This document shows, in pieces, positions 6,171 through 22,163 of a stretch of 25,721 bases of DNA. Source of the stretch: a virus; IMG/VR virus record IMGVR_UViG_3300013093_000244, positions 1-25,721 of that record, one strand, 5' to 3'. The notes under the pieces were generated by a model. The model was not told the DNA's origin and ran no database searches. It was given only the letters and a program-made list of their open reading frames with translations. Both the position numbers and the translations under genes were made by a program. Within the stretch, counting starts at the first letter, position 1; each line of letters begins with the position of its first letter.

Positions 6171-6929
6171 TTATATTGGTGTGCCAAGTGGTACTGGAAC
6201 TAATGTTGGTGATGTAGGTCCTGTTGCAACGTGTGTATGCAAATTGTAATCAACAGTAACAAATGTATCGTAAGCGGCTCGTAAAGAAGCTAAAGAACCA
6301 AATAAACCTGGCGTTGGAAGACCTGTATCGTAAATATTACCAGGAACAAGTACGGTGGGTGTTAATGCTAAAGGCCCTGCGGCTATCACACCTAATGGTG
6401 CTAAAATGCTACCTTTAGTAGAATTCACAGAACCTAATGCAGAAACACTACCGTTTACAGTTAAATCTGAATTTATGTTAACTGCATCTGCTGAAAGTGT
6501 TAATGTTCCAGAAGTTGTAATATCGGTATCACCTTCACTAATAATTTCAGCACTACCTGCAACGTGAGTTATCATATCACCCGCAACGGTTTGATTAACA
6601 TTACCATCAACTTGAATGTAAGAATCGCCTTTAACATGTAAAACAGAAGGACCACCTATTGTAATATTACATTGACCTCCTATGTATACATTATTATTTT
6701 CCATTGTAATGTAATAACCATTACCAAATATTTTAGTAATTGATGTTCCATCTTGTTGCCATTCTATAAAATTATTTGCGGTTCCGTGTTGTAAACGAAT
6801 CCTTTGTGCATTTGGGGTATCATCCATTTCAAAAAGATGACCGCCTCTTGTTTGTCTTGCATTATTGTAAGGATATTCAGGTTTTGCACTTGAAAACGGT
6901 TCGGTCCATGAACTATCAGGTATTGCCAT
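6171..6929 (-). CDS. gp5C: Tail needle: gp5 C-terminal beta-helix as a separate gene
   Basis: The 252-residue product matches the C-terminal fragment of T4 gp5. The segment EPFSSAKPEYPYNNA then GGHLFEMDDTPNAQRIRLQH corresponds to T4 EPVSSYKGEYPYVHT and SGHIQEFDDTPGQERYRLVH. It is followed by VKGDSYIQVDGNVNQTVAGD-type repeats (about residues 100-145) of the VgrG/gp5 triple-stranded beta-helix that forms the membrane-piercing needle. There is no lysozyme or OB domain in this ORF. The gene starts almost exactly where T4 gp5 is cut during maturation (between residues 351 and 352). After the repeats, residues about 155-252 form an Ala/Pro/Gly-rich tail not seen in T4 gp5, ending with HTHVATGPTSPT. 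The gp5 match is secure. The mode of assembly with the OB-domain protein is inferred. Confidence 0.88.
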   Translation of the reverse strand: MAIPDSSWTEPFSSAKPEYPYNNARQTRGGHLFEMDDTPNAQRIRLQHGTANNFIEWQQDGTSITKIFGNGYYITMENNNVYIGGQCNITIGGPSVLHVKGDSYIQVDGNVNQTVAGDMITHVAGSAEIISEGDTDITTSGTLTLSADAVNINSDLTVNGSVSALGSVNSTKGSILAPLGVIAAGPLALTPTVLVPGNIYDTGLPTPGLFGSLASLRAAYDTFVTVDYNLHTHVATGPTSPTLVPVPLGTPI

Positions 6930-17677: not shown

Positions 17678-17700
17678 AAAAAACCCACCTTGCGGTGGGT
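17678..17700 (-). terminator. Rho-independent terminator between converging operons
   Basis: A perfect 7-bp stem (ACCCACC, loop TTGC, GGTGGGT at 17683-17700) is followed on the minus strand by six T residues, a good terminator for the leftward rubrerythrin transcript. On the plus strand the stem is followed by TCTAAAA, a poor T tract, so any effect on the rightward tail operon would be weaker. Confidence 0.8.
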
Positions 17701-17737
17701 CTAAAACTCTTCAGAAGACACTTAAGAAGAAAGAGTT

Positions 17738-17869
17738 TTAAATGAGTTCGTAGTCTTCCTTACCACATCCACACTCTGGACATTCAAAATCTTCAGGTAA
17801 TGTTTCCCATTTACCTTCAGTCTCCTCATCATGTATGTGTCCACATACTAAACATACGTGTTCTTTCAT
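17738..17869 (-). CDS. Stand-alone rubredoxin domain, partner of the rubrerythrin
   Basis: A 43-residue ORF reads MKEHVCLVCGHIHDEETEG, a short linker, then FECPECGCGKEDYELI. C6-x2-C9 and C30-x2-C33 form the iron-binding set of a rubredoxin domain; C35 is extra. In classic rubrerythrins this domain is fused to the C-terminus of the diiron domain and passes electrons to it. Here it starts in a different frame, with ATG overlapping the rubrerythrin TGA (ATGA), and a strong GGAGG site sits 4 nt before its ATG, inside the rubrerythrin gene. Together the two ORFs (149 + 43 residues) equal the usual length of a fused rubrerythrin (about 191). Confidence 0.85.
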   Translation of the reverse strand: MKEHVCLVCGHIHDEETEGKWETLPEDFECPECGCGKEDYELI

Positions 17870-18315
17870 AGAGCCTCCAATACTTTAGTGTATGCATCAG
17901 CGTGTCTTTTCTCTACTTTAGCAAGAGCCGCAAACTTCTTTTCAGCCTTCTTTAGAACTTCTTTGAATTGTTCAGCGTGTTCTTTAGATTCTGCAATTTG
18001 TTCTTGTATCTCTTTTTGGGCTTCAGATTTACCTTCTGCAACTGCAATAGAATAAAACTGAGGATACATTTCTGTAAACTCATATGTTTCACCATCGATT
18101 GCCTTCTGTAAACATTCTTTAGTTGAAGGCTTACCGATTAACAATTCTAAATGGCTCCATGCGTGTAAGATTTCTTGGTCAGCAGTATGTTCAAAGTGTT
18201 TTGCAACCTCTTCAAAACCTTCTTCCCTAGCAATCTTTGCAAAATATCTATACTTGATATGTGCCATGGACTCTCCTGCCAAGGCACTCTCAAGGTTTTT
18301 GAGAGTGACACTCAT
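17866..18315 (-). CDS. Rubrerythrin diiron (ferritin-like) domain protein
   Basis: The 149-residue protein is a four-helix ferritin-like domain with all the diiron ligands expected of rubrerythrin. E15, E48 and H51 (ADQEILHA), E76 and E79 (GETYEFTEMYP), and E109 and E112 (AESKEH) keep the spacing I recall for Desulfovibrio rubrerythrin (E20, E53, H56, E94, E97, E127, E130), except for a shorter middle loop. The enzyme reduces hydrogen peroxide to water and needs a rubredoxin domain as electron carrier; the next ORF supplies one. It starts 1 nt after the gp32 stop, with AGAGGA in the gp32 end as ribosome site, so it is co-expressed with replication genes. The role, peroxide protection during infection, is inference. 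Confidence 0.9.
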   Translation of the reverse strand: MSVTLKNLESALAGESMAHIKYRYFAKIAREEGFEEVAKHFEHTADQEILHAWSHLELLIGKPSTKECLQKAIDGETYEFTEMYPQFYSIAVAEGKSEAQKEIQEQIAESKEHAEQFKEVLKKAEKKFAALAKVEKRHADAYTKVLEAL

Positions 18316-18316
18316 A

Positions 18317-19207
18317 TTAATCTTCCTCTGCTAATTTTGCGAAATAATCTAAATCGTCATCTTCAGCTAACTCAGGTTCAGCACTAAACGAACGTTGAGC
18401 AACTTTAGGTGTCTCTTTGAGAATTTCTACTGTTGTTTTACCGGCAGTATCTACTAACCCAAGAACTTTGTCAAGGCGTTTCTTCAAGTCATCATATGAT
18501 TTAAACTCTTTTTCACCCACAAGAACTTGTAGTGAATGTTCAGAGTTATAAATCTTTTCTAGTTTTGCATCATCTTCACTCAATGGTGCTGGTGTAGCAA
18601 ACTCAGACTTATCATAAGATTGATAGCCATCAACTTTACGAATCTTCAATTTGAAGTTCGCACCTTTCCACAAATCAAATGGGTCGAATGGTTTTTCATC
18701 AGGGAATGTAGGATTCCATGCTTCTACCAATTTTTCATAGATTTTCTTACCGTACTTGAATAAAAATACTTTACCTTCATTCTCTGGATGCTTAGGGTCA
18801 GAAACAATGTATACATTAGATACGTAATTTAACTTACGCTTTCTATCTCTTGCTACTTGTTTGTTTGCCTCGATGCCAGAATTCCATAACAAACTATTAC
18901 TCTCACAAACAGGACAATTCTTACCTTGAGTTGTCAAACAATTATCAATTAACCAGCCACCAGGACCTTGAAAGCCATGATGCCAGTATTTGACCCATTG
19001 TAAACCATCTTCACCATCTTGCGGTGGTGTAGGTAAGAAACGTATTTCAGCCATACCATTACCAGCCTTATCGACTTCTGGTTTCCAAAATAGTTCTTTG
19101 TTTGATGCACCATCGAATGAGGTGTTGAGTGCTTCAGCGGCTTTTGCAAGACGGTCTAGATTTGAACCTTCTTCCGCTCTTTTCTTTAGTTTAGAAAAAT
19201 CTACCAT
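18317..19207 (-). CDS. gp32: Single-stranded DNA-binding protein gp32
   Basis: The 296-residue product matches T4 gp32 in length (301) and layout: a basic N-terminal segment for cooperativity, an OB core starting near KELFWKPEVDKAG, the zinc site H77-x12-C90-x7-C98-x2-C101, and an acidic C-terminal tail (AEDDDLDYFAKLAEED) that recruits partner proteins such as gp59. It coats single-stranded DNA during replication, recombination and repair. AAGGA lies 7 nt before ATG. A late-type TATAAATA motif lies 65 nt upstream. It shares an operon with gp59 and gp33-like, and with the rubrerythrin genes downstream. Confidence 0.95.
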   Translation of the reverse strand: MVDFSKLKKRAEEGSNLDRLAKAAEALNTSFDGASNKELFWKPEVDKAGNGMAEIRFLPTPPQDGEDGLQWVKYWHHGFQGPGGWLIDNCLTTQGKNCPVCESNSLLWNSGIEANKQVARDRKRKLNYVSNVYIVSDPKHPENEGKVFLFKYGKKIYEKLVEAWNPTFPDEKPFDPFDLWKGANFKLKIRKVDGYQSYDKSEFATPAPLSEDDAKLEKIYNSEHSLQVLVGEKEFKSYDDLKKRLDKVLGLVDTAGKTTVEILKETPKVAQRSFSAEPELAEDDDLDYFAKLAEED

Positions 19208-21241: not shown

Positions 21242-21718
21242 TTAGAATGATACTTTTACACCGGCAAGATATGTATTGCCGTTAAAAGATTTTGTAGTAG
21301 ATCCACTTGCACTTGCTTCATAACGATAGTCGGCAGTTAATGCAACGTCCTTAAGAACATCAACTGAAACGCCAGCACCAACTACACCAGCAAAGCCGGT
21401 ATCTTTAGCTTTTGTATTGAATTGATTGAGTCGTTGATCTATGAATAAACCACCAACTTTAACAGTAGCTGTAGCAGGACCGAATTTTGCAACATCGTAA
21501 CCAGCAACTAAACTTAACTTTGTAGTATCTGTTTTCTGGTAGAAATCTACACCAGCAGTAGCAGATAATTTGTTAAAATGTTGACCTACGGTTAGACCTA
21601 AGCCTGCATCTGAATGGTTATTATCTGTACGGTCACTTGAACCATTAATACCCACTTCTAATGCACTTGCACCTAATACAAATGTAGCCAATAAAGTGGC
21701 TAGTAACGTTTTTTTCAT
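21242..21718 (-). CDS. Outer-membrane beta-barrel protein with signal peptide
   Basis: The 158-residue protein starts MKKTLLATLLATFVLGASA, a clear Sec signal peptide with cleavage near residue 19. The mature part shows alternating hydrophobic/polar strands (LSLVAGYDVAKF, VALTADYRYEASAS, YLAGVKVSF) and ends in Phe, the usual BAM-recognised C-terminus of Gram-negative outer-membrane proteins. About eight strands fit the OmpA/OmpX/Lom type. AGGAG lies before ATG. The gene stands alone between two hairpins and directly follows the tmRNA terminator, so its own promoter is not obvious. Phage barrels such as lambda Lom alter the lysogen or cell surface; here blocking of receptor or superinfection is possible but inferred. 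Confidence 0.8.
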   Translation of the reverse strand: MKKTLLATLLATFVLGASALEVGINGSSDRTDNNHSDAGLGLTVGQHFNKLSATAGVDFYQKTDTTKLSLVAGYDVAKFGPATATVKVGGLFIDQRLNQFNTKAKDTGFAGVVGAGVSVDVLKDVALTADYRYEASASGSTTKSFNGNTYLAGVKVSF

Positions 21719-21736
21719 TTAAACTCCTTTTAGTTG

Positions 21737-21774
21737 AAAAATTGATTGGTTATTCTGTTACTAGGAAACCAATC
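21737..21774 (-). terminator. Terminator after the tmRNA gene
   Basis: On the minus strand GATTGGTT (21774-21767) pairs perfectly with AACCAATC (21751-21744), loop 15 nt, followed by AATTTTT. It lies 18 nt past the tag stop codon and ends the tmRNA transcript before the OMP gene. Confidence 0.75.
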
Positions 21775-21791
21775 GAAACCCTAAGCCACGT

Positions 21792-21824
21792 TTATGCGGC
21801 TAATGCGAATAACTCATCGTTTGC
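21792..21824 (-). other. tmRNA tag reading frame (ANDELFALAA-stop)
   Basis: The resume codon GCA at 21824-21822 opens ten codons giving ANDELFALAA and ends at TAA. The AND start and the ALAA end are hallmarks of proteobacterial proteolysis tags recognised by ClpXP/ClpAP. E. coli has ANDENYALAA, and many betaproteobacteria have ANDxxFALAA forms. The sequence just before GCA (AATAACT) resembles the conserved region that positions the resume codon. Confidence 0.93.
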
Positions 21825-21908
21825 AGTTATTAAATTTTGCTTTTAACGTCTACTCCTGACGAGTTGTCTGTGCCTCTACTTGTTGCCCTGTCGAAACTAT
21901 GCAGGCCC

Positions 21909-21967
21909 ATCAAAAGCATACTATCTCTACTTAAAGTTTATCAGCAAGCCGACTCACAGTATGCTTT
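21909..21967 (-). other. tmRNA intervening transcribed segment with stem
   Basis: This 59-nt spacer joins the acceptor 3' end to the coding 5' end. Its ends form a perfect 11-bp inverted repeat (AGTATGCTTTT at 21958-21968 and AAAAGCATACT at 21912-21922), which stacks beyond the acceptor stem and presents the precursor as a hairpin for processing by tRNA-type nucleases. The loop holds about 35 nt. Confidence 0.8.
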
Positions 21968-22163
21968 TGGTGGACCTGGGGGGATTCGCACCCCCGTCCA
22001 AAACACTTTTCGATTTACTTCATACAACCATAATCATCTAACAGATTGCGTTTGCTTTCTCTTAAATGATTTTCTTAAAATCTTAAGCCACAGTTTTTTA
22101 GCTTTTCTTTTTTGATGCTTAAACTCTGCTTTGTTTAGCTTGAAGATTAACTTTTCAGTTTTC

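Follow-up and report, generated by a model that had tools for sequence, protein, structure and literature searches.

A conserved rubrerythrin and rubredoxin gene pair, most likely a peroxidase, in uncultured phages of aquatic bacteria

Two adjacent genes of a T4-like phage, one for a one-domain rubrerythrin (rbr) and one for a stand-alone short rubredoxin (rd), represent a two-gene system that is conserved among uncultured phages infecting aquatic bacteria and that, as judged from sequence, is most likely a peroxidase. The window analyzed here, 25,721 bases long, is the whole of a virus record. A first-pass annotation had described the locus as a fused rubrerythrin split into two overlapping genes. 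The two-gene layout is an inherited, conserved arrangement of these phages, not a broken single gene. In the explanation that we consider probable, the pair provides an auxiliary peroxidase made up of a one-domain rubrerythrin and a separate rubredoxin, which derives from or shares ancestry with a proteobacterial operon, takes its electrons from a host reductase, and is expressed in coupled fashion in time with replication. The explanation builds on the intactness, conservation, and ancestry of the genes, on purifying selection, and on the absence of a reductase from the contigs searched.

Organization of the locus

The 149-aa diiron ORF, the 43-residue rubredoxin ORF, the ATGA overlap between them, and the GGAGG site noted in the first-pass annotation are all present (Table 1). 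The GGAGG lies 4 bases ahead of the rd ATG, and a GGAG-type site also precedes rd in most of the relatives listed; the ATGA overlap argues for translational coupling of rd to rbr. The gp32 gene is directly upstream, with the rbr start located 1 base past the gp32 stop. The surrounding genes are T4-like by Pfam and PHROGs comparison and include a deoxyribonucleotidase, the gp59 helicase loader, and a late-transcription co-activator, together with weak matches to tail proteins. Given gp32, gp59, the co-activator, and the tail genes, and the replisome genes found in relatives, the pair qualifies as a phage auxiliary metabolic gene system, in the sense of cell-derived metabolic genes carried on a phage genome. 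A terminator-like hairpin downstream of rd likely marks the end of a gp32-rbr-rd transcript; the evidence for both the hairpin and co-transcription is weak, and a sigma-70 promoter scan returned about as many candidates as expected by chance.

Table 1. Features of the rubrerythrin and rubredoxin locus in the window
Feature	Position	Strand	Evidence
rbr, one-domain rubrerythrin, 149 aa	17866-18315	-	ORF list, Pfam PF02915
rd, stand-alone short rubredoxin, 43 aa, CxxC-x20-CxxC	17738-17869	-	ORF list, Pfam PF00301
ATGA overlap of rbr stop and rd start	17866-17869	-	Read in sequence
GGAGG ribosome-binding site of rd, within rbr 3' end	17874-17878	-	Read in sequence
GAGGAAG ribosome-binding site of rbr, overlying gp32 end	18322-18328	-	Read in sequence
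gp32 single-stranded DNA-binding protein gene	18317-19207	-	Pfam gp32 6.4e-40, PHROG 224 4.8e-100
Terminator-like hairpin and T run	17681-17702	-	1 found versus 1.4 expected by chance; position only

Two other features of the window bear on the phage and its host. A permuted tmRNA of betaproteobacterial type at 21735-22080(-) (RF01850, 128 bits; RF04321, 136 bits; ARAGORN tag ANDELFALAA) gives a hint that the host may belong to the Betaproteobacteria, where the complete rbr-rd-reductase operon occurs. The presence of this tmRNA in a T4-like phage also points to phage control over ribosome rescue. The ORF at 21242-21718(-) has a signal-peptide-like start and an outer-membrane beta-barrel match (PF13505, 1.9e-8), with no strong PHROG; its product reads as a phage-encoded outer membrane protein, possibly with a role in superinfection exclusion.

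Two genes at every viral locus

A scan of IMG/VR with the window's diiron protein identified 517 stretches encoding relatives, and two further queries gave at least 563 in one case and 492 in the other, the three sets overlapping. Among the relatives retrieved from diiron-protein queries are 142 distinct viral loci, none of which contains a fused rubrerythrin-rubredoxin gene. A separate rd ORF lies close downstream of rbr in 139 of the 139 testable loci; the other three end at a contig edge and hence are not testable for rd. The search of phage and bacterial genomes proposed in the first-pass annotation has recovered the same two-gene order, which is also that of the nearest Betaproteobacteria. 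The intergenic gap is -1 in 90 loci and -4 in 35, amounting to overlap in 125/139, and is positive in the remaining 14 (+1 to +16, +130, +142, and +412). The largest of these gaps, 412 bases, belongs to L325; a small ORF of its own sits between rbr and rd in L055, L059, L065 (3451-3592), and L013 (3451-3580).

These comparisons bear on whether a sequencing indel or a programmed frameshift might conceal a single fused protein, as the overlap of the two frames within 4 bases could suggest. The junction is nonetheless identical in independent assemblies. L001, which is a separate record, shows 99.8% identity across the two genes and matches at 6439/6447 bases over the locus with the ATGA junction kept, and the junction is unchanged in L002 (97.4%) and in L003 and L004 (89-90%), which counters the indel named as a possible refutation in the first-pass annotation. 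All 139 testable loci are unfused; the frame of rd relative to rbr takes one value in 128 loci and another in 11 and is never in-frame, and four loci have the small intervening ORF. No slippery heptamer was seen by eye at the junction. Both frames are also under purifying selection, with pooled pN/pS of 0.23 for rbr and 0.16 for rd (the latter with the proteins put in register on the first Cys), in keeping with the earlier description of two intact, separate genes downstream of gp32 in a phage. The conserved unfused loci and the independent records exclude a sequencing indel, gene decay to a pseudogene, and a product fused by frameshifting, or leave them very unlikely, and we consider a single fused product the most improbable of the readings weighed here.

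The pair adjoins gp32 or its neighbors in 19/142 loci and regA, gp62, or gp43 in 45/142; in 78/142, many of which have short flanks, neither gp32 and its neighbors nor regA, gp62, or gp43 is seen. Placement by gp32 or between regA and gp43 is a phage-specific trait of the system, as are the trimmed rd loop, translational coupling, and repeated change of rd type. Among 50,697 cultured phage records there is no close match to the pair (unannotated human fecal "Bacteriophage sp." matches were left out). The view that such an enzyme is unusual in a phage consequently holds for cultured phages and fails for uncultured ones, given more than 500 IMG/VR stretches.

The diiron protein

The rbr product matches the Rubrerythrin family (PF02915; 1.8e-18, 67.6 bits against a curated cut-off of 22.8) and rubrerythrins in the PDB (best E-value 3e-22), and scores 79.5 against the NCBIfam rubrerythrin equivalog model, for which the cut-off is 200. 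PHROGs holds no convincing family for either rbr or rd, and annotation by PHROGs would miss the pair for that reason. The 149-aa chain lacks a C-terminal short-spaced rubredoxin-like domain, the ORF stopping before such a domain. Its AlphaFold2 model (pLDDT 93.9) is a four-helix ferritin-like chain with a last helix of 52 residues. In Foldseek the model best matches Pyrococcus furiosus rubrerythrin (E 1.9e-7 to 1nnq), and it also fits Clostridium difficile rubrerythrin and sulerythrin, the best matches being mostly at 1.0-1.8 A. The fit to Desulfovibrio vulgaris rubrerythrin is poor (about 14 A) beside the good P. furiosus-type fit, a combination that in the model suggests a domain-swapped dimer.

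The candidate metal ligands are E15, E48, H51, E76, E79, E109, and H113. The first-pass annotation placed all seven at family spacing, which is correct for six of them (E15-x32-E48-x2-H51, E76-x2-E79, and H113) and not for the helix-D Glu, which is off by one: the pair reads E109-x3-H113, and Ser aligns with the ExxH Glu of P. furiosus rubrerythrin. This arrangement is common to all relatives, phages and bacteria of the group alike, in alignment A1, where a second ExxH, E135/H138, is also invariant 25 residues past the helix-D pair. The two regions resemble an internal repeat of the last helix (EHAEQFKEVL and RHADAYTKVL), and the predicted iron ligands could be either E109/H113 or E135/H138. 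Because the helix-D spacing departs from that of classical rubrerythrin, the metal site and its chemistry could differ as well. In comparison with classical fused rubrerythrins (D. vulgaris, P. furiosus), the fold and most ligand positions are alike; the fused short-spaced tail domain and the ExxH in helix D belong to the classical proteins and not to phage rbr.

The rubredoxin

The 43-aa protein had been taken for the rubredoxin domain of a rubrerythrin. It matches free Rubredoxin (PF00301; 7.8e-8, 32.7 bits against a cut-off of 23) and P. aeruginosa rubredoxin (5e-9), whereas its match to the rubrerythrin tail domain RUBY_RBDX (9.6e-4) falls under the cut-off. The four Cys, in two CxxC pairs, are invariant in rubredoxin alignment A2, and the model (pLDDT 92.7) fits known rubredoxins, among them 2v3b and 6rxn; those that it fits include the P. 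aeruginosa protein solved with its reductase. In alignment, phage rd corresponds to the bacterial rubredoxin with 9 residues of the loop removed (x29 to x20) or with 12 removed (x17); the full-length x29 loop is absent from the window's rd (x20), and other loci have x17 or x22. The x22 spacing is seen in a divergent partner rubredoxin at L350:1944-2090 (CPVCDYVYENDPDRTVPFAELPEDYLCPAC). A short loop does not bar rd from the rubredoxin family, because accepted rubredoxins such as 6rxn share it: in the 45-residue Desulfovibrio desulfuricans protein (PDB 6rxn; 36% identity) the loop is likewise shortened. By these sequence comparisons the rd product is a trimmed classical free rubredoxin, not a rubrerythrin tail domain.

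The x17 and x20 types are scattered across the rubrerythrin tree, so rd has been exchanged, or its loop altered, repeatedly. At least 10 changes are required on a small tree; on a larger, poorly resolved tree there are 21, against 26 with shuffled labels, and five are forced by well-supported branches. Such frequent change of type might be expected if the phage rubredoxin mainly served a rubredoxin-dependent enzyme of the host and its pairing with rubrerythrin were merely positional, but every viral rbr locus with enough downstream sequence has rd, and we regard this alternative as improbable.

Cellular relatives and origin of the pair

Among 84,980 species genomes, the best relatives of rbr are in Betaproteobacteria (61-69% whole-protein identity). 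In nearly all of the betaproteobacterial loci retrieved, rbr encodes about 153-159 residues and a rubredoxin gene of its own, for 54-56 residues, lies within about 160 bases; in L097, where the sequence ends shortly past rbr, no rubredoxin was detected. A flavoprotein gene comes next after rbr-rd in most of the examined bacterial loci with enough sequence, and the Polynucleobacter flavoprotein contains a rubredoxin-binding domain (PF18113, 1.5e-22) and most resembles NADH:flavorubredoxin reductase. The bacterial system comprises a one-domain rubrerythrin (of a sub-cluster of group 5, PMC5114695), an adjacent rubredoxin, and a reductase, and shares with the phage pair its gene order, one-domain build, and invariant residues. 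It differs in that the phage rubredoxin has lost 9 or 12 loop residues, the phage genes overlap whereas the bacterial ones are about 15-160 bases apart, and the reductase gene is absent in the phages searched.

In a tree of 85 sequences, phage rbr forms one clade (97/100) on a long stem, separate from but beside the betaproteobacterial one-domain forms, and cyanobacterial proteins fused to a long-spaced rubredoxin fall outside the phage-betaproteobacterial group (branch 84/89). The "cyanobacterial-type" group 5 rubrerythrins of Cardenas et al. (2016) include one-domain proteobacterial and fused cyanobacterial members, with a one-domain ancestor inferred and fusion placed in Cyanobacteria (PMC5114695). 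The window's rbr would belong to this group, in the proteobacterial one-domain clade, the bacterial members being assigned by their description in PMC5114695. The ferritin-like domain of the fused Anabaena RbrA-type proteins of group 5 is related to that of the phage (42-44% when aligned by BLAST) and has the second ExxH region; these proteins differ from the two phage genes in carrying the long-spaced rubredoxin domain in the same chain.

These relationships decide against the origin first suggested, in which a fused rubrerythrin gene was split within the phage into two subunit genes. In gene order and total length the pair does look like a fused rubrerythrin, and fused forms with a long-spaced rubredoxin are known in Cyanobacteria. 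The nearest cellular relatives are nevertheless already two genes, the fused forms lie outside the group, the ancestor was probably one-domain, and rd aligns with free rubredoxin except for a missing loop. A split is rejected on relatives, tree, and rd alignment, and it retains very little probability; that the two products together make about 191 residues, the size given for a normal fused rubrerythrin in the first-pass annotation, is a coincidence. With the nearest bacteria two-gene, the fused cyanobacterial forms outside, and a one-domain ancestor, the two-gene state is therefore inherited. Transfer was presumably from cell to phage, and the tree gives no date for it.

One bacterial chromosome carries the phage-type pair: L150 (3001-3584), a 1.49 Mb contig of a Vampirovibrio MAG, in which the pair shows 82% identity, lies inside the phage clade, and adjoins thiol peroxidase (tpx) and enolase genes. 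The next best match in that phylum, among 292 genomes sampled, is at 60%. The L150 pair looks like a transfer from phage to bacterium, although faulty binning or assembly of the MAG is an alternative.

A second rubrerythrin occurs in T4-like phages of marine waters. Pelagibacter phage Mosig (EXVC030M) encodes, immediately upstream of gp32, a one-domain rubrerythrin that is only distantly related; it is of a type resembling the published "aerobic-type" and comes without a rubredoxin gene or domain. Of 80 IMG/VR relatives (L354-L433, marine pelagiphage-like contigs), none has a rubredoxin. As at the window's locus, gp32 is often close, within 2.3 kb in 25/80 and within 220 bases in 11/80. In the tree the Mosig protein groups with short bacterial forms (L166, L167), far from the window's group, so the two kinds of rubrerythrin appear to have been acquired separately by T4-like aquatic phages.

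Proposed function

In the proposed mechanism, the phage pair would descend from, or share ancestry with, the proteobacterial rbr-rd-rubredoxin reductase operon, T4-like phages having kept rbr and rd without the reductase gene. During infection, electrons from NAD(P)H would enter through the host rubredoxin reductase and pass via phage rubredoxin to the diiron site of phage rubrerythrin, where hydrogen peroxide would be reduced to water. The ATGA overlap would tie rd translation to that of rbr, and the location, either behind gp32 or flanked by regA and gp43, would bring expression alongside the replication genes. Electrons are most likely borrowed from the host because 16 large phage contigs (60-356 kb, some perhaps incomplete) lack the reductase domain PF18113; tblastn likewise found no rubredoxin reductase in the flanks of the viral loci. 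Phage rubredoxin may not be the sole donor, because FNR is reported to reduce the diiron site of Anabaena RbrA without help from the rubredoxin domain (PMC6616624).

The working peroxidase of diiron protein and rubredoxin suggested in the first-pass annotation remains likely, on the strength of homology and gene partnership. The fused group 5 relative RbrA is cited in PMC6616624 as a proven peroxidase (Zhao 2007), and our literature search found no biochemical data on one-domain group 5 members. An alternative of some weight, which we nonetheless consider unlikely, is that the diiron protein, as a member of the ferritin-like proteins, chiefly handles iron or senses oxygen, or donates to another diiron enzyme of phage or host, with rubredoxin as its reductant and peroxide removal secondary. 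The shifted helix-D ligand and the second invariant ExxH in the 52-residue last helix are compatible with such a role, and nucleotide-metabolism genes nearby would allow a connection with DNA precursor synthesis. The invariable presence of rubredoxin alongside rubrerythrin, joined in cells by rubredoxin reductase, is instead typical of the electron supply of a peroxidase, and in L150 the phage-type pair adjoins tpx.

A bolder version of the peroxidase reading, offered tentatively, is that of a modular phage peroxidase, in which the rubredoxin is kept separate, streamlined, and exchangeable (17- or 20-spaced, perhaps to fit the host reductase), placement in the replication block shields replication from peroxide, and rubrerythrin has been recruited at least twice independently.

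Significance

A literature search found no study of an rbr-rd pair in phages; rubrerythrin receives passing mention as a viral auxiliary gene in the available portions of PMC10146946 and PMC10199544, which leave a rubredoxin partner undescribed. The pair is nevertheless common in uncultured phages, occurring in hundreds of IMG/VR stretches without a close match in cultured phages. It constitutes a natural experiment on the shortening and replacement of an electron carrier while the enzyme that it serves stays the same, and its presence suggests that peroxide truly limits phage replication and that the pair would benefit the phage.
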